Below the pieces are notes generated by a model. It was not told the DNA's origin and ran no database searches. It saw only the letters and a list, made by a program, of their open reading frames with translations. From Chitinophagaceae bacterium IBVUCB2 (GTDB lineage: Bacteria; Bacteroidota; Bacteroidia; Chitinophagales; Chitinophagaceae), in the NCBI GenBank assembly GCA_002127295.1, contig NFUV01000001.1, positions 1,426,001-1,490,000 on the forward strand: a stretch of 64,000 bases of DNA. The letters run 5' to 3'. Positions 24,796 through 31,687 of this stretch are shown piece by piece (the first letter of the stretch is position 1; every line of letters starts with the position of its first letter). The position numbers were made by a program, and so were the translations under genes.

Positions 24796-25950
24796 TTATA
24801 CCTGTTTTATAGCCGCTTTTAAAAAAGGCCAGGTGGGTAGTGATGAAATAATTTTCAACTCCTCCTGTAAAGAGCTTTCATTATCTAAAAACCTCAGCAC
24901 TTGTTGGGGTTTATTTTTTTTAAAGAGTTGCGAAAATATTTTATCGCCGGGGAGTTTATCATAAAAGAGAATATGCAGCAGTGTATTATCATAAAACCTA
25001 AACCTTGCCGGCGTTTGTGGGAGCTCATTTAATGATTTATTTGCGGCGAGATACTCGACAATCTCCATTGATTGCTTTTGAATGAATTGAAAAGTATACC
25101 CACTGGAGGATTTCGTTTGTCCACCCGCTGTTCCTATCATCCATGCATTATGCCCATTGAAAGTCAGCTTTTCGTTTGTCATTGGAATAACACCAAACTC
25201 CACTTCTTTAATTATATACTCGTCAATATTTAAAAAATCATTGATATAGGTTCTCAACTCTTTATCATACTCCTCATCATCCAGCATGGTTTTGGTGAAG
25301 AGAGTATACTCAATCAATGCGGATGTAGTGCTAAAGGGAAGTACATACGCAAACGTAGTACCATGTTGTTGATGTACCCGAAAGTCCATCATGGTAGCTT
25401 CCCCGGAATTAAAAGAAGGTTTTGCTGTTTCAATTACCCATCCTTTAAAATGTTGAAGTAATTTAATAACACCATTCCTGGGTGGAGCAGGTTTATAAAT
25501 TGAATTGAAAATTTGTGTACCTACATCAATCAACCTAAATTGCTTATCGTCTATCTTCAAAACGATTGCTTCATCTTCTTGTTCCCATCCTTTCACATCA
25601 CCATATACAACTTCTACATTCTTATTTTTATTTATTTCGCTAAAGCAGTAGTTGTAAAAATCGGCCCCTCTGATCATTTTATATTCATAGGGGTCTATAG
25701 CTAACCCAGAAGAAAAATCATTACTTAGAAAAGAAACCTTATCCCATCTTTTATAAACAATTTCATCAAAAAAGCCCTTCTCCCTTTCCCAATAGCACCA
25801 GGTCCTGTCATTCTTGGTTTTTACTTCTTTGTCGATGAGTAATATTTTTTTATTGGCCAGGCTTTTATTGCGGAGCATACGGAGTAAAAGGCTGAGCCCA
25901 GCACAGCCGGCACCACATATTATATAATCGTATGAGTTTGATTTAAGCAA
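24796..25950 (-). CDS. crtY: Lycopene beta-cyclase
   Basis: CrtY folds the ends of lycopene into beta-ionone rings, giving gamma- and then beta-carotene. The 384 residues show the FAD/NAD-binding start YDYIICGAGCAGLSLLLRM, LLIDKEVKTKNDRTWCYWE (family D-x-TW motif) and PRNGVIKLLQHFKGWVIE. Next come VLPFSTTSALIEYTLF and GVIPMTNE, then GTAGGQTKSSSGYTFQFIQ. The first codon seems to be TTG; there is no in-frame ATG close by. It is the last gene of the crt operon, 34 bases after crtZ. Confidence 0.93.
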   Translation of the reverse strand: MLKSNSYDYIICGAGCAGLSLLLRMLRNKSLANKKILLIDKEVKTKNDRTWCYWEREKGFFDEIVYKRWDKVSFLSNDFSSGLAIDPYEYKMIRGADFYNYCFSEINKNKNVEVVYGDVKGWEQEDEAIVLKIDDKQFRLIDVGTQIFNSIYKPAPPRNGVIKLLQHFKGWVIETAKPSFNSGEATMMDFRVHQQHGTTFAYVLPFSTTSALIEYTLFTKTMLDDEEYDKELRTYINDFLNIDEYIIKEVEFGVIPMTNEKLTFNGHNAWMIGTAGGQTKSSSGYTFQFIQKQSMEIVEYLAANKSLNELPQTPARFRFYDNTLLHILFYDKLPGDKIFSQLFKKNKPQQVLRFLDNESSLQEELKIISSLPTWPFLKAAIKQV

Positions 25951-25984: not shown

Positions 25985-26494
25985 TTAGTCGGCTTCCGGA
26001 GCATATGCAACTTTTCGACTTCCTGCCATCAATTTTTTATCCCGGCGTATTTTTTCCCAATACTTTTTGTGCACATATAGCATACCGAAACTTTCACCAT
26101 TATGTCTATCCAGATGTTTGTGGTGCATTTTATGGGCCCATCGTATTGTTCTTACATATGAGTTATTACTTCTTGTAAACCATTTGAACCGCTGGTGAAT
26201 AATTACATCATGTACTATAAAATAAGCAACTCCATATGCCATAATACCAAAACCAATGGCTTGCATCCACCACATTTTATCAAATGTGCCAAAATAAATT
26301 AATAACATACTTGGGATGGCGAATATGATAAAGAAAGCATCATTTTTTTCAAAAAAGCCCGGTTCAGTCTGGTGATGATCTTTATGGAGATACCATAAAA
26401 AGCCATGCATTATAAAACGATGAGTACACCATGTGATCCCTTCCATGACTATAAAAGTTCCCAGCAACACCAATATATATCTTAGAACATCCAT
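25985..26494 (-). CDS. crtZ: Beta-carotene hydroxylase
   Basis: CrtZ is a membrane di-iron hydroxylase that adds 3-hydroxyl groups to beta-carotene rings, making beta-cryptoxanthin and zeaxanthin. The 169 residues have about four helices and the histidine clusters of the fatty acid hydroxylase superfamily: THRFIMHG and HKDHH (near 25-42), HDVIIHQRF (near 94) and HKMHHKH (near 122). It lies 11 bases after idi in the crt operon. No CrtW ketolase is visible, so zeaxanthin rather than astaxanthin is the predicted end product of the genes seen here. Confidence 0.93.
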   Translation of the reverse strand: MDVLRYILVLLGTFIVMEGITWCTHRFIMHGFLWYLHKDHHQTEPGFFEKNDAFFIIFAIPSMLLIYFGTFDKMWWMQAIGFGIMAYGVAYFIVHDVIIHQRFKWFTRSNNSYVRTIRWAHKMHHKHLDRHNGESFGMLYVHKKYWEKIRRDKKLMAGSRKVAYAPEAD

Positions 26495-26505
26495 ATTACA
26501 ATATT

Positions 26506-27048
26506 TTAAACAGCTATTTTAACCTGGTAAGTCTTTGCCCACCACTTTTCTATTTCCGGGAAAGCTATATGAAACCAGGCAGTGAACTTTTCTGGTGTTT
26601 CCCGCAATGATAAGCGAATAGCCGGTATTTCCATGTAACAGCAACTCATCACTTCATCAGTATTAAAAAGTATTTCGCCATCATATTCTCCAACAAATAC
26701 ATGGTCGAATTCATGCTCCATAAGACCGTTTTCTAACTTTGCATTATATACGAAATCAAAAATTTTCTCAACAGATACCTGAAAACCCAGTTCTTCATTG
26801 AGCCTCCGCATGACAGCTTCTTCAGTTACTTCGCCCGGGAGTGGATGGCTACAGCAGGCATTTGTCCATAATCCCCCACTATGATATTTACCCAAAGCTC
26901 TTTGCTGGAGCAACATCTCTCCTTTTTTATTAAAAATAAAAACACTGAATGCCCGGTGCAATAATCCCTTAACATGAGCATCCATTTTTTCATGACTTCC
27001 CAAAGGATTGTCAAAGCTATCTACCAATATTACATTTTCCGTTTGCAT
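26506..27048 (-). CDS. idi: Isopentenyl-diphosphate delta-isomerase (type I)
   Basis: IDI converts IPP to DMAPP, balancing the C5 units for prenyl chain synthesis. This 180-residue Nudix-fold enzyme has the catalytic cysteine in TNACCSHPLPGE, the Nudix-like helix EAVMRRLNEELGF and the glutamates of LENGLMEHEFDHVFVG. It starts two bases after the crtB stop, so it is translationally linked to the carotenoid genes. Its place inside the operon suggests that C5 supply is raised together with pigment synthesis. Confidence 0.95.
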   Translation of the reverse strand: MQTENVILVDSFDNPLGSHEKMDAHVKGLLHRAFSVFIFNKKGEMLLQQRALGKYHSGGLWTNACCSHPLPGEVTEEAVMRRLNEELGFQVSVEKIFDFVYNAKLENGLMEHEFDHVFVGEYDGEILFNTDEVMSCCYMEIPAIRLSLRETPEKFTAWFHIAFPEIEKWWAKTYQVKIAV

Positions 27049-27050
27049 AG

Positions 27051-27887
27051 TTAGATTAATCGTAATTGGTTTTTTACCCCGGCTCTTAAAATAATTAATG
27101 CTTTACGGTAATTGGGTATACGTATTCTTTCTTCCAGTATCCTGGCGGGTTGCATACTTTTAATTTTTTTAAATAAAGAGAGATAATACTTGTAGGCTAC
27201 ATATACTCCAAATTTTGCCTTTAAAGGAAGATTTAAAATTCCCTCATAAGCTTCTTTAAAATCTGCATGTATCTCCTCTTCGATATCTCTTTTTTGCTGG
27301 GCTGTAAAATTATCAAAATCGCAACCGGGAAAATAAACTCTCGCCAGTCCATTATAATCTGCTTTTATATCTCTTAAAAAATTTACTTTTTGAAAAGCGG
27401 CCCCTAAAGCCCTTGCCGGTTTCTCTAATTTCTGATACATCTCTTTTTTTCCTTCACAAAAAACATACAGACACATTAGTCCCACTACTTCGGCAGAGCC
27501 ATATATATATTCAGTATAGCCTTGTTTATCATACTTTGTTTTGCATAAATCTAACTCCATGCTATGAAAAAAAGCATCAATGAGTTTATGGTCAATATTA
27601 TATTCATTGACTGTTCGCTGAAAGCTGTTTAAGACGGGATTAAGACTAATGCCTCTTTCAATAGCAGCGTAGGTCTCTGATTTGAACTGATCCAGTAATA
27701 CCGCTTTGTCAAAATCATGAAAAGTGTCAACTATTTCATCAGCAAATCTTACAAAACCATAGATATTGTAAACAGGAGTTTGCAAATCCGTATGGAGCAT
27801 TTGTATAGCAGATGAAAAAGAGGTGCTATAATTTTTGGTAATTATCCTGCTACAATCCTCACTGGTGGTATGAAATAACTTAACCAT
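27051..27887 (-). CDS. crtB: Phytoene synthase
   Basis: CrtB joins two geranylgeranyl diphosphates head to head into phytoene. The 278 residues carry both aspartate-rich Mg-binding motifs of the squalene/phytoene synthase family: DEIVD in YGFVRFADEIVDTFHDFD (near 48) and DIKAD in NFLRDIKADYNGLARVYFP (near 170). SFSSAIQMLHTDLQTPVYNI lies near the start. It is 17 bases downstream of crtI and two bases before idi. No GGPP synthase gene is in this window. Confidence 0.96.
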   Translation of the reverse strand: MVKLFHTTSEDCSRIITKNYSTSFSSAIQMLHTDLQTPVYNIYGFVRFADEIVDTFHDFDKAVLLDQFKSETYAAIERGISLNPVLNSFQRTVNEYNIDHKLIDAFFHSMELDLCKTKYDKQGYTEYIYGSAEVVGLMCLYVFCEGKKEMYQKLEKPARALGAAFQKVNFLRDIKADYNGLARVYFPGCDFDNFTAQQKRDIEEEIHADFKEAYEGILNLPLKAKFGVYVAYKYYLSLFKKIKSMQPARILEERIRIPNYRKALIILRAGVKNQLRLI

Positions 27888-27904: not shown

Positions 27905-29380
27905 TTATCGCAACGTTTTGATCACTTGTTTAGCTACTACCTCTCCACTTATCAAGCTTGGCGGAACACCCGGACCCGGAACAGTTAATTGTCCTGTAAA
28001 AAAAAGGTTTTTAACCTTTTTACTTTGACAAGAAGGCCGAAATATGGCAGTTTGCAGCAATGTATTGGCCAGGCCATACGCATTGCCTTTAAATGAGTTG
28101 TAATCATTTACGAACTCTGTTACTGAATAGGATTTTTTATACACGATAGAATCAAGAATAGATTCTCCCAGGTGCTTTTCCATTCTTTTGGCGATCTGAA
28201 CAAAATATTTTTCCCGCAGTTCTTCTGTATCACCTTCTAAACCTGAAGCAACAGGAATAAGAAAAACGATATTTTCATGTCCTGCTGGTGCAACAGATTC
28301 ATCAGTAAGTGAAGAAACACTCACATAAAATAATGGCGCAGTTGGCCATTTTGGTTGCTTATATATTTCTTTACCGTGTGCATCAAATGAAACATCAAAA
28401 AATAATGAATGGTGAACAGGCTGTTTTAGTTTTTTATTTAATCCAACATAATAAAGCAGGCAAGATGGAGCCATCACTTTTTTAGCCCAATAGTTATCAG
28501 TATATGTTCTATATTCCGGTTGCAATAATTTTGTTTCAGTAAAATGATAATCCGCCCCGCTTACTACCACATCCGCATCATAACTGCCTTTATTCGTAAT
28601 TACTTTTTTGGCGGTTGAATGATCAACAACAATTTCACTCACATTCTCATTAAAATGAAATTGCACCCCCAGCTCTGTTGCAAGCTTATGCATTCCTTCT
28701 ACGATTGCATACATTCCTCCTTCGGGATACCAGGTTCCTCCTTTAATATCTGCATAATTCATCAGGCTGTATAAGGCAGGTGTATCTTCTGGCAAAGCAC
28801 CTAAAAACAACACCGGGAACTCCATCATTTGGCGAAGCTTAGGATGCTTAAAATAATGATGGATATGTTTTTTTATGGAAGAGAAAACCTGCAATTTAAA
28901 AACTCCACTTATTGTCTCCCAGTCCATGAATTCAGTTAGCGACTGACCTGGTTTATAAACCAGTTTGTTAACTCCAACTTCATATTTATAGGCAGCACCC
29001 TTAAGATACTTTTCCAGTTTCGCCGCACTACCGGGTTCAATTGATTCAAAAATATTTTGTAAGGCAGCAAAATCAGCCGGCATATCTGTATGCCCGTCGT
29101 TCCAATAAATGCGATAGGAGGGATCCAGGCGATGAAGTGAATAATAATCAGCAACTTTTTTTCCGAATTGTGCAAAATAGCGTTCAAAAACATCCGGCAT
29201 CCAGTAAAAGCTTGGACCCATATCAAAAGTGAATCCGCTTTCTTTTAATTGTCTTGCCCTGCCACCCGGAGTTGAATTTTTTTCTATTACTGTAACATGG
29301 TAACCTTCTTTGGCTAAAAAAGAAGCTGCTGATAAACCGGCAAACCCACTGCCAATGACAATCACTTTTCTGTTGGTCAC
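27905..29380 (-). CDS. crtI: Phytoene desaturase
   Basis: CrtI is the FAD-dependent desaturase that turns phytoene into lycopene. The 491 residues start with the dinucleotide-binding fold VIVIGSGFAGLSAASFLAKE and PGGRARQLKESGFTFDMGPS, and end with the family signature NLFFTGQLTVPGPGVPPSL. The first codon appears to be GTG, with the ECF sigma factor stop 10 bases upstream. CrtI-like enzymes of this phylum usually make four desaturations (lycopene); the sequence does not contradict this. Confidence 0.96.
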   Translation of the reverse strand: MTNRKVIVIGSGFAGLSAASFLAKEGYHVTVIEKNSTPGGRARQLKESGFTFDMGPSFYWMPDVFERYFAQFGKKVADYYSLHRLDPSYRIYWNDGHTDMPADFAALQNIFESIEPGSAAKLEKYLKGAAYKYEVGVNKLVYKPGQSLTEFMDWETISGVFKLQVFSSIKKHIHHYFKHPKLRQMMEFPVLFLGALPEDTPALYSLMNYADIKGGTWYPEGGMYAIVEGMHKLATELGVQFHFNENVSEIVVDHSTAKKVITNKGSYDADVVVSGADYHFTETKLLQPEYRTYTDNYWAKKVMAPSCLLYYVGLNKKLKQPVHHSLFFDVSFDAHGKEIYKQPKWPTAPLFYVSVSSLTDESVAPAGHENIVFLIPVASGLEGDTEELREKYFVQIAKRMEKHLGESILDSIVYKKSYSVTEFVNDYNSFKGNAYGLANTLLQTAIFRPSCQSKKVKNLFFTGQLTVPGPGVPPSLISGEVVAKQVIKTLR

Positions 29381-29390
29381 TCGTATTTTT

Positions 29391-29891
29391 TTAGAATCTG
29401 CTGATTTGTTCTTTCAATAATTTGCGGGCAAAATGAATTCTGCTTTTAATAGTTCCCAGCGGTTCGTGTAGTACATCCGCTATTTCGTTGTATCTATACC
29501 CATCAAAATACAATAAAAAAGGGGTTTTAAATATTTCTGGTAATGCAAGAATAGCTTTCTTTATTTCTTTGATCCGCATTTCACTTTCCGCTGCATTCGC
29601 AACGATGGCCTGGTTTTGATTAAGCAGGTATTCGTTAGGGGTGTTATCGAAAATTGTTTTTTGCTTTGCCTTTCTCCTGTAATTATTAATAAAAATATTA
29701 CGCATAATAGTGAATAACCATGCTTTAATATTAGTACCAACATTATACTTTTCTCTATTGGCCAATGCTTTGTACAATGTTTCCTGGTACAGGTCATTGG
29801 CGGCCTCATTATCTCTTGTAAGGTTTATAGCAAATGGCTTTAAAAAGCTGGCATTACTAAGTAGCATTTCGTTAAACTCAAGTGTTGACAT
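29391..29891 (-). CDS. ECF-type RNA polymerase sigma factor
   Basis: This is a 166-residue sigma-70 family factor with region 2 (LTRDNEAANDLYQETLYKAL ... NIKAWLFTIMRNIFINNYRR) and region 4 (LPEIFKTPFLLYFDGYRYNEIADVLHEPLGTIKSRIHFAR, helix-turn-helix). It has no domain beyond these and no anti-sigma gene beside it. It is the first gene of the crt operon and is expected to direct transcription of this operon or other light- or stress-related genes (inference). The promoter in front carries the normal vegetative boxes and two inverted repeats. Confidence 0.92.
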   Translation of the reverse strand: MSTLEFNEMLLSNASFLKPFAINLTRDNEAANDLYQETLYKALANREKYNVGTNIKAWLFTIMRNIFINNYRRKAKQKTIFDNTPNEYLLNQNQAIVANAAESEMRIKEIKKAILALPEIFKTPFLLYFDGYRYNEIADVLHEPLGTIKSRIHFARKLLKEQISRF

Positions 29892-29897
29892 AGTATT

Positions 29898-29929
29898 TTG
29901 TTTAAATAATCTACGTCAAAGCTAAACAA
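29898..29929. promoter_or_regulatory. Inverted repeat O1 over the crt promoter
   Basis: TTGTTTA (29898-29904), an 18-base spacer and TAAACAA (29923-29929) form a 32-bp inverted repeat that overlaps the -7 box and the expected transcript start. It has exactly the arm sequence and spacing of the repeat at 29953-29984. A repressor bound here would block RNA polymerase; the adjacent B12-dependent MerR protein is the obvious candidate. Confidence 0.6.
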
Positions 29930-29945
29930 AAAGATTGCTGCCAAA
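29917..29945 (-). promoter_or_regulatory. Predicted crt operon promoter
   Basis: On the minus strand TAGCTTTG (29924-29917) is a perfect TAnnTTTG -7 box, and TTTG (29945-29942) lies 17 bases upstream as the -33 element. Transcription would start near 29910, about 20 bases before the ATG of the sigma factor gene at 29891. Confidence 0.65.
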
Positions 29946-29952
29946 GACATTT

Positions 29953-29984
29953 TTGTTTAATATTTTAATTAAATTATTAAACAA
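29953..29984. promoter_or_regulatory. Inverted repeat O2 upstream of the crt promoter
   Basis: TTGTTTAATA (29953-29962) and TATTAAACAA (29975-29984) are perfect 10-bp arms around a 12-base AT spacer. The shared 7-bp ends are TTGTTTA/TAAACAA with 18 bases between, as in the repeat over the -7 box, and the two repeats start 55 bases apart. It ends seven bases upstream of the -33 element. Confidence 0.65.
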
Positions 29985-30015
29985 TTATAAATCAATAAAT
30001 TACAAAGAGGGGAAA

Positions 30016-30894
30016 TTATAATGTAAACAGATATTCCATTACTTCTGAGAGTGATCGCTTAAAGTAGACATTCTCGGGAGTTTTCTTTTTATACTGTTGG
30101 GTTAAATAGCCAGAAATCAGTGTGGGAGTATTTCCAAAACGTTGCTGGATGTTTGCAAGGAATTTTTCAAAGTTGAAATGCGCTGCTGTGGCGGTAAGAT
30201 GTGTAAAAACTACGTCGGGCTTTTTGTAGTTAATAATATATTCCATATCCTTCATGGGCACATTTGCACCAAGATATATTGTTCTGGCACCACGGCTTTT
30301 TAGCAAATAATACATGAACAATAACCCAAGTTCATGGTGCTCACTTTCAGGTAAGAATAGTAAAAAAGTCTTATCAATTTTTACGGTAGATACAGTTGTT
30401 TCTATTCCTACAATTAGCTTCTGACGAATAATATTGGTTACCAGATGCTCCTGTACCGGGTTAATATGTCCTGTTTGCCATAGAATTCCAATTTTTTCAA
30501 GGAAAGGAAAAATTATTTGTACTACGGTTCTTTCAATCCCCTTTTCAGCGATGTATTGCGACAGAATTTTTTCAAAACTGTCAATATTGAGATCTGCCAT
30601 CTCCTGAACAAGCTCGTTAATTATTCGTTCCTGCACTATCTTAACATCGCCAAAAGAAAGTATCCGCTCCTTAATTTCCTGGGGCTGCATCTTATCTATA
30701 TGCGATATTTTATATCCATACTTATTAAGTAATGCTATGTTAAGTATGGTTTTTAATTCCTCGTTAGAATAATAACGAATATTAGTAGTTGTACGCTGCG
30801 GCTTCAAAAAATTATATCGCTGCTCCCATATACGTATGGTATGAGCTTTAATTCCGGATAAATTTTCTAAATCCTTTATTGTAAAGGCGTTCAT
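30016..30894 (-). CDS. MerR-family regulator with B12-binding domain (CarH/LitR type)
   Basis: This is a predicted adenosylcobalamin-dependent photoreceptor/repressor. The 292 residues have an N-terminal MerR helix-turn-helix (FTIKDLENLSGIKAHTIRIW, then QRYNFLKPQRT). A helical-bundle segment with the capping motif W139-x9-E149-H150 follows, then a Rossmann-like B12 domain with E185-x-H187-x-x-G190 supplying the lower axial histidine. CarH proteins bind operators as AdoCbl tetramers in the dark and fall apart in light, turning on carotenoid genes. Residue 140 is Gln where Thermus CarH has the His that binds cobalt after light exposure. It lies directly upstream of the crt operon, 124 bases away. 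Confidence 0.9.
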   Translation of the reverse strand: MNAFTIKDLENLSGIKAHTIRIWEQRYNFLKPQRTTTNIRYYSNEELKTILNIALLNKYGYKISHIDKMQPQEIKERILSFGDVKIVQERIINELVQEMADLNIDSFEKILSQYIAEKGIERTVVQIIFPFLEKIGILWQTGHINPVQEHLVTNIIRQKLIVGIETTVSTVKIDKTFLLFLPESEHHELGLLFMYYLLKSRGARTIYLGANVPMKDMEYIINYKKPDVVFTHLTATAAHFNFEKFLANIQQRFGNTPTLISGYLTQQYKKKTPENVYFKRSLSEVMEYLFTL

Positions 30895-30943: not shown

Positions 30944-31687
30944 TTATAGTTGGCTATTTCTGATTTTTCCAGTCTCTATTAATTTGGAAAGGCTATTGGT
31001 GATGGAGGGGTTTTTCAACGCTTCAAGATGGCGATGGTGGTGCAAGTCAGTTCCTACAAGATTATAATGTCCCTTTTTAATTAGATAGTTAGCAAGTTCC
31101 TGTACCGATTTTCCATAATAACCCGTCAATGCAAGAATATTTAGCTGAAACATGCAATCTATTTCCTTCAGTTCTTCATAAAATTCCTTGTTGTTGGCCA
31201 GGTAAATATATCGTTCAGGATGTGCAATGATTGGCTGATATCCTTTCATCTGCATTTCAAATAAAATATCTTTCAAGCTCATTGGTGCATGTGCCAATGA
31301 AAATTCTACCAATACCATTTTACCACTTACAGTTAGTAGTGGCTGGTTGGTTCGTAACAATTCCTCTACATGATCGTCCAAAAAATATTCTGCAGCCGCT
31401 TGTATTTCAACTGGTATACCTTCCTTATTTACCGCATCCTGCAACAACTCCAATTTGGCCAGTACTCCATCTCTTGTATTCCGGTACATATCCCACATTA
31501 TATGTGGGGTTGTGATAAGCTTAGTATATCCTAATGCAGCTAAGCCCCGGATTAATTGGAGAGAGGTTTCAATATCCGGAGAACCGTCATCTATGCCCGG
31601 AAGCAAGTGAGAATGCATATCAACCTTAACCTGGCTGAAATCAGTTTTCGTGGATTCCGGTTTGGAACGGGAGAATAATTTAAACAT
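30944..31687 (-). CDS. CpsB/CapC-type tyrosine-protein phosphatase (PHP domain)
   Basis: This is a manganese-dependent PHP-family phosphatase that dephosphorylates the bacterial tyrosine kinase controlling capsule/exopolysaccharide assembly. The 247 residues show VDMHSHLLPGIDDGSPDIE, with the first His/Asp metal ligands (H26 and H28), TTPHIMWDMYRNT, the later IAHPERY and GTDLHHHRH. It is the last gene of the polysaccharide cluster, while its presumed substrate, the tyrosine kinase at 59648-62056, is near the first. The MerR gene starts 49 bases further on in the same direction. Confidence 0.92.
   Translation of the reverse strand: MFKLFSRSKPESTKTDFSQVKVDMHSHLLPGIDDGSPDIETSLQLIRGLAALGYTKLITTPHIMWDMYRNTRDGVLAKLELLQDAVNKEGIPVEIQAAAEYFLDDHVEELLRTNQPLLTVSGKMVLVEFSLAHAPMSLKDILFEMQMKGYQPIIAHPERYIYLANNKEFYEELKEIDCMFQLNILALTGYYGKSVQELANYLIKKGHYNLVGTDLHHHRHLEALKNPSITNSLSKLIETGKIRNSQL

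Follow-up and report, generated by a model that had tools for sequence, protein, structure and literature searches.

Two inverted repeats at a Chitinophagaceae carotenoid promoter as the probable operator of a CarH-type B12 photoreceptor

Background

Which protein reads the two identical inverted repeats that stand between a B12-type MerR regulator gene and the carotenoid (crt) genes of Chitinophagaceae bacterium IBVUCB2? The repeats lie in a 124-base gap (29892-30015) within a stretch of 64,000 nucleotides (contig NFUV01000001.1, positions 1,426,001 to 1,490,000 of the forward strand, assembly GCA_002127295.1; referred to below as the window, with positions counted from its first letter), and the gap runs from the 3' end of the regulator gene, here called carH, to the start codon of an ECF sigma factor gene. 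The genes stand in tandem on the minus strand, in the order CpsB-like phosphatase, MerR/B12 regulator, gap, ECF sigma factor, crtI, crtB, idi, crtZ-like and crtY, so that the promoter expected in the gap is the one serving sigma and crt rather than that of the regulator. Comparison with related genomes indicates that the repeats are very probably the operator of the neighbouring CarH-type B12 photoreceptor.

Results

Two dyads in the promoter gap

The pattern TTGTTTA-N18-TAAACAA (hereafter a dyad) occurs twice in the gap, 55 bases apart, exactly where a first-pass annotation of this DNA had placed it (Table 1). The same annotation had one repeat covering a -7 box and the other ending seven bases before a -33 element; the box is at 29924-29917, and a TTTG at 29945-29942 stands seven bases past the distal dyad. 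The distal dyad is 94% palindromic across its 32 bases. The pattern is found 2 times in the window, against 0.01 expected, and in the 4.0 Mb genome at the same 2 places only (backward control, 0). With the arms shortened to six bases (TGTTTA/TAAACA) and the spacer held at exactly N18, the genome has 5 places (backward control, 1), of which the three outside the gap are all within open frames; exact N19 pairs of these six-base arms are absent from this genome. A search allowing two mismatches gave 546 forward matches and 614 in the control, and is therefore uninformative on a wider regulon in this genome. Taken alone, the exact N18 pattern is unspecific: it occurs somewhere in 136 of 394 genomes of the family, and the 30 loci kept from that search divide into 14 by carH, sigma or crtI, 8 inside open frames of at least 379 codons and 8 elsewhere. 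An occurrence in a genome with no carH match (L036, genome G085) lies 30 bases upstream of a gene that resembles, on visual inspection, an efflux-pump gene, and was taken as chance.

Conservation among named relatives

Relatives were represented by 80 named loci, the best 80 of 137, chosen by protein homology to the regulator alone and consisting mostly of Chitinophagaceae and other Bacteroidota records. In these 750,805 bases the inverted pair TGTTTA/TAAACA occurs 56 times at N18 and 59 times at N19 (115 in total), and no other spacer from 0 to 60 has more than 3 cases. Among control arms, a spike for TTGTAT-N14-ATACAA (7 cases) was traced to conserved codons inside the sigma gene and discarded. 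After setting aside the nine of 80 loci that have no sigma gene in the fetched stretch, we found the proximal dyad before sigma in 71 of 71 loci (at most one mismatch in the 12 arm bases), 28-46 bases before the sigma start as estimated by alignment.

A second, distal dyad is present in 39 of these 71 loci, and the left arms of the two are then 55 bases apart in 27 cases, 56 in seven, 57 in three and 54 in two. Judged from these alignments the conserved unit is the single dyad, with the second one optional. The first-pass annotation had pointed to the binding of CarH-type repressors to paired sites as tetramers; a tetramer bridging both dyads is at most conjectural. Across the named loci the arms are almost invariant and the spacer is variable. 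The nearest relative (L064), whose CarH is 100% identical over the match, differs from our locus in both spacers, with the arms unchanged.

Half-site and arrangement

PMC9304148 describes the CarH site as tandem 11-bp direct repeats of the form nnnnTnnACAn that lie over the -35 or -10 element; Thermus has three of them and Bacillus megaterium has four. In the Thermus complex, direct repeats DR1 and DR3, 22 bp apart, are contacted by a single head-to-tail dimer of CarH. For CarA of Myxococcus xanthus, two inverted repeats were first proposed and direct-repeat recognition was suggested instead (PMC9304148). Set against the half-site consensus TnnACA of that source, the arm TAAACA fits. The first-pass annotation had considered the arm sequence different from the TGTACA-type sites of Thermus CarH; this does not hold for the half-site, whereas a difference in arrangement does exist, the arms here being inverted, with N18 or N19 between them, and 24-25 bp apart.

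It is conceivable that CarH binds here as in Thermus, reading one good TnnACA together with adjoining degenerate tandem repeats, so that the inverted appearance would be incidental, but we regard this as unlikely. Both arms are held at a fixed N18/N19 spacing. In the 71 named loci TnnACA is not enriched at +-11 or +-22 relative to either arm, and small clusters appear at other offsets only (for example, -17 in 8/71 and +44 in 17/71). Tandem 11-bp triplets are found in 0 of 152 promoter regions and doublets in 5 of 152 (3.3%, against 2.4% in shuffles), whereas the same script applied to the Thermus HB8 carH promoter (L330) as a control finds the triplet and no dyad. Hidden 11-bp direct repeats were rejected on these counts.

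The dyads share with known CarH operators an overlap with the presumed crt core promoter, through a -7-like box within the proximal dyad (70/71; see below). Because the half-site is that of the family and the tandem repetition is missing, what is new would be the arrangement of the operator, in a regulator family already known. The distance between the arms (24-25 bp) is close to the 22 bp spanned by the Thermus dimer in the published account (PMC9304148), from which we infer one CarH dimer per dyad. We think it rather probable, with distinctly less assurance than for the identity of the operator itself, that this applies throughout the class: that CarH of Bacteroidia reads its ordinary half-site as inverted pairs, each dyad taken by a dimer of two-fold symmetry in which one DNA-binding domain is turned relative to the Thermus complex; that the polarity has been switched while half-site, fold and light chemistry have been kept; and that the inverted arrangement at first suggested for CarA of Myxococcus does exist here.

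Dependence on carH rather than on the sigma factor

A second possibility is that the dyads serve a different regulator found with the cluster, such as the ECF sigma factor, which would then control its own promoter. The overlap of the proximal arm with the -7 box and the usual co-occurrence of sigma gene and dyads would suit such a reading, so genomes in which carH and sigma part company are the informative ones. We searched 244 genomes of the family for crtI and carH, counting as carH-negative those without a match at 1e-30; the 20 carH-negative genomes used were picked by eye among the crtI matches listed, as absent from the carH matches.

In the seven of these that have sigma-crtI, the dyad before sigma is missing throughout (0/7), although several keep a -7-like box, for example, TAAATTTG. 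The 13 that have crtI without sigma likewise have no dyad near the start (0/13). These figures leave out a one-mismatch match about 310 bases before sigma in the carH-negative L190, and for L204, L199 and L197 they cover only 0.3-1.5 kb upstream. Six further crtI genomes without a carH match (G003, G005, G022, G037, G057 and G035) gave no dyad at up to one mismatch.

The converse group consists of 13 carH genomes chosen because carH is not in tandem with crtI ('unlinked' where the two lie on different contigs or at least about 200 kb apart; contig breaks may hide some linkage). Where sigma-crtI is present and carH is unlinked, the exact dyad is kept in 9 of 9. G096, in which carH is divergent and nearby, stands outside this count and also has the dyad; in G235, G086 and G228 sigma is beside carH and the dyad is there. 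A Fisher value of 5e-5 was obtained with 10/10 (G096 included) and ignores relatedness. In the same-genus genomes G030, G002, G013 and G016, which have carH on another contig, both dyads are kept (at most one mismatch), and within one genus the carH-positive G143 and G271 have the dyad and the carH-negative G219 and G315 do not.

Clusters of carH and crtI with no sigma gene between them have dyads (at most one mismatch) before carH, crtI or both in 9 of 9, three of these genomes having been picked with pattern matches already in view. The dyads thus follow carH and not sigma (0/7 without carH, 9/9 with carH unlinked, 9/9 without sigma). Sigma autoregulation was rejected on this comparison; the half-site moreover fits that of CarH, and we consider attribution to any other regulator improbable.

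More distant relatives were added as 20 regions picked from the crtI and carH match lists, with pattern matches in view for G317, G062 and G232. The set of 20 regions that includes L239 has the dyad in 19, and a further batch of 20 has it in 19 of the 19 regions with carH and sigma, one region having neither gene.

Even less room is left for the repeats acting at the RNA level, with one hairpin terminating transcription past the regulator and another forming a leader structure. The distal dyad, a nearly perfect palindrome, does lie just past the stop codon of the regulator gene, but in both dyads and in those before carH the letters of the arms scarcely change while those of the spacer do; the proximal dyad overlaps the promoter, and dyads are missing where carH is missing. 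We rejected hairpins on the pattern of fixed arms and free spacer, and rate them as highly improbable.

Chance symmetry in an AT-rich gap is the least credible account: dinucleotide shuffles of the gap contain some equal-geometry pair of inverted 7-mers in 227 of 20,000 cases (about 1%; 0 of 2048 for the other 124-base windows of the 64 kb), which makes the window alone suggestive and not conclusive, but the dyad recurs in 71/71 related promoters with a sigma gene, and it is this comparative evidence, rather than the word-free shuffle control, that excludes chance.

Other families of the class

Forty carH neighbourhoods from 30 other families of the class (Bacteroidia, as deduced from the named records) were picked among the matches listed with the pattern unseen. 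All 26 of these that have sigma or crt genes as neighbours carry a dyad 20-170 bases before carH, sigma or crtI, as do 4 of the 14 that have no such neighbour. Exact pairs peak at N18, with 33 cases, against 6 at N19 and 0 or 1 at each other spacer up to 40. The distance between dyads is mostly 33-64 bases; besides 55, the values are 33-36, 42-43, 53 and 62-64, with a few of 88 and 121. Additional other-family loci with crt neighbours have the dyad (at most one mismatch) in 13 of 13, and two additional loci without crt neighbours have none. In Persicobacter (Cytophagales), two exact dyads lie about 150 and 250 bases before carH. Four relatives from outside the class, which have distant CarH-like proteins and no crt neighbours by tblastn, show no dyad near carH; one of the out-of-class regions (L310) has a single one-mismatch match about 1 kb before carH.

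The search of relatives' carotenoid clusters that the first-pass annotation had proposed as a check thus recovered the dyads in the 71 named sigma loci and in both sets of other-family loci with sigma or crt neighbours, and its suggestion of a candidate operator for the neighbouring B12-type MerR regulator is borne out by the comparison. Relatives that keep the regulator-crt arrangement also keep the repeats, with one exception found, L239 (G168).

In one related genus, dyads precede a small gene that has a photolyase gene behind it (L047), and dyads also separate pterin genes (PTPS, FolE) from a gene for a SOUL heme-binding protein (L328, L046). A wider light regulon in that genus is possible on this evidence; the photolyase and folE cases would fit, since phrB and folE are light-inducible under Pseudomonas LitR relatives (PMC9758184).

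The regulator protein

The product of the adjacent gene is CarH-like by sequence and by predicted fold. Its Pfam domains are MerR_1, B12-binding_2 and B12-binding, its closest solved relatives by sequence are the Thermus CarH/LitR entries, and the Wx9EH motif and the axial-histidine motif ExHxxG align with theirs. The predicted model has a mean pLDDT of 90, and its first matches in the Protein Data Bank (PDB) are full-length Thermus CarH (5c8d/5c8e) with TM-scores of 0.5-0.6. The NCBIfam CarH equivalog NF052513 is the best family, at 100 bits against a cut-off of 400; the equivalog score is not reached, which makes the regulator a distant CarH member. Among the 80 named relatives, Wx9EH is found in all 80 and both motifs in 79. 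In the 40 other-family loci the counts are 40 for Wx9EH and 26 for the strict ExHxxG, the shortfall in the latter being mostly due to a different last G.

The same genome has a second CarH-like gene (L063:7976-8875; G000:C1:183975-184832) of 35% identity, with Wx9EH kept as judged by eye, which does not adjoin carotenoid genes; a near-match to the dyad upstream of it is within a neighbouring open frame and was dismissed. Elsewhere, L298 has CarH beside a sigma gene, an axial-histidine motif that reads EMQEL, and one-mismatch dyads only; a loss of B12 light sensing is possible there.

Promoter overlap and proposed mechanism

The box TAGCTTTG was identified with TAnnTTTG, which we take to be the -7 consensus, and it overlaps one arm of the proximal dyad. 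In the named relatives the looser form TAnnTT[TC][GA] lies inside the proximal dyad in 70 of 71 loci (13% expected from shuffled spacers) and TAnnTTTG itself in 36 of 71 (2% expected), at offset 4 in 35 of those 36. The looser box is present in 3 of 39 distal dyads and 17 of 26 dyads before carH. The possible -33 element TTTG is not clearly conserved among the named relatives. In the other families TAnnTTTG is mostly at offset 15 (11 cases; L270-L327), against 4 here, a shift of 11 bases, roughly a turn of the helix; in both layouts a protein on the dyad would cover the box wherever there is one.

We hold it very likely that the dyads are the operator of the adjacent CarH photoreceptor, which would repress the sigma/crt genes in the dark and be released by light. 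What the comparison supports is that the sites exist, are conserved, depend on carH instead of sigma and overlap the -7 box; the steps of regulation proposed from them are as follows. In the dark, CarH charged with adenosylcobalamin (AdoCbl) would bind the inverted TnnACA half-sites; because the proximal dyad covers the -7 box, its occupation is proposed to keep RNA polymerase off the promoter of the presumed sigma-crtI-crtB-idi-crtZ-crtY operon, and the distal dyad would be a second site, probably a cooperative one. Light would break the cobalt-carbon bond, so that CarH comes apart and leaves the DNA. The sigma factor and the carotenoid enzymes would then be made, and the sigma factor may in turn amplify the response.

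Several observations weigh against this reading. No inverted repeat is among the CarH operators described in the literature consulted, and PMC9304148 suggests recognition of direct repeats even for CarA. In L239 the dyad is missing at up to one mismatch although carH, sigma and crtI are all there. A dyad at the promoter of carH itself is absent from this window, occurs in just 26 of the 80 named loci and is found in 2 of 12 carH-side regions of the unlinked group. In the other families the nearest dyad holds the looser -7-like box in just 25 of 49 cases (13% expected; TAnnTTTG in 18 of 49). The carH-negative genomes with sigma are few (seven, from five genera), and related genomes are not independent. 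The L239 cluster is a place to look for a changed half-site.

Features of the locus

Coordinates are collected in Table 1. A CpsB/CapC homologue is within the fetched stretch in 34 of the 80 named loci.

Table 1. Coordinates in the window of the dyads, promoter elements and genes
Feature	Position	Strand	Remarks
Proximal dyad, TTGTTTA-N18-TAAACAA	29898..29929	-	Coding strand TTGTTTAGCTTTGACGTAGATTATTTAAACAA; contains the -7 box
-7 box, TAGCTTTG	29917..29924	-	Overlaps one arm of the proximal dyad; same offset in relatives
Possible -33 element, TTTG	29942..29945	-	17 bases before the -7 box; seven bases past the distal dyad
Distal dyad, TTGTTTA-N18-TAAACAA	29953..29984	-	Left arm 55 bp from that of the proximal dyad
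CpsB/CapC-type phosphatase gene	30944-31687	-	Directly before carH
CarH-type regulator	30016..30894	-	MerR DNA-binding domain and two B12-binding domains; Wx9EH, ExHxxG
ECF sigma factor	29391..29891	-	First gene of the presumed operon
crtI, phytoene desaturase	27905..29380	-	NCBIfam CrtID
crtB, squalene/phytoene synthase family	27051..27887	-	
idi, isopentenyl-diphosphate isomerase	26506..27048	-	
crtZ-like hydroxylase	25985..26494	-	No Pfam or NCBIfam match; name presumed from gene order
crtY-type lycopene cyclase	24796..25950	-	

Discussion

Significance

For a large group of environmental bacteria the dyads supply a concrete candidate operator through which B12 and light would control carotenoids, and they separate the half-site from the arrangement in a structurally well-studied photoreceptor. 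Whether the DNA-binding domains of CarH work in inverted order can be tested with one 124-bp fragment. The dyad, together with its position relative to gene starts, suggests photolyase, pterin and SOUL genes of one genus as additional candidates for light control, and it could serve as a part for a green-light switch. Searches of open-licence literature on CarH/LitR, Bacteroidota and inverted repeats, judged mainly by titles and the starts of abstracts, yielded no paper on such an operator.

Comparison with known systems

CarH of Thermus thermophilus is of the same family and fold as the regulator studied here, and its gene adjoins a phytoene/squalene synthase gene, comparable to the crt neighbours at our locus. 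According to PMC9304148, the Thermus and B. megaterium operators have the TnnACA half-site and lie on the carotenoid core promoter, as here; they differ in having three or four direct repeats over -35/-10 where this locus has inverted pairs over the -7 box. A similar layout is that of the M. xanthus crt promoter, at which the same account places the two proposed inverted repeats, one upstream of the -35 element and one overlapping it, in an operator of about 55 bp. Those inverted repeats are degenerate in relatives, and the authors favour direct repeats, whereas here the arms are near-invariant in the named loci and direct repeats are absent. Class II LitR of Pseudomonas is a light-controlled repressor of the same family as CarH here, and its light-inducible genes include phrB and folE, genes of a kind that follow dyads in one genus in our comparison (PMC9758184). 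PmlR2 of Pseudomonas, according to the same source, leaves DNA through the action of a LOV partner protein once that partner is illuminated, unlike the mechanism proposed here, in which the light-sensing protein itself would leave the operator.
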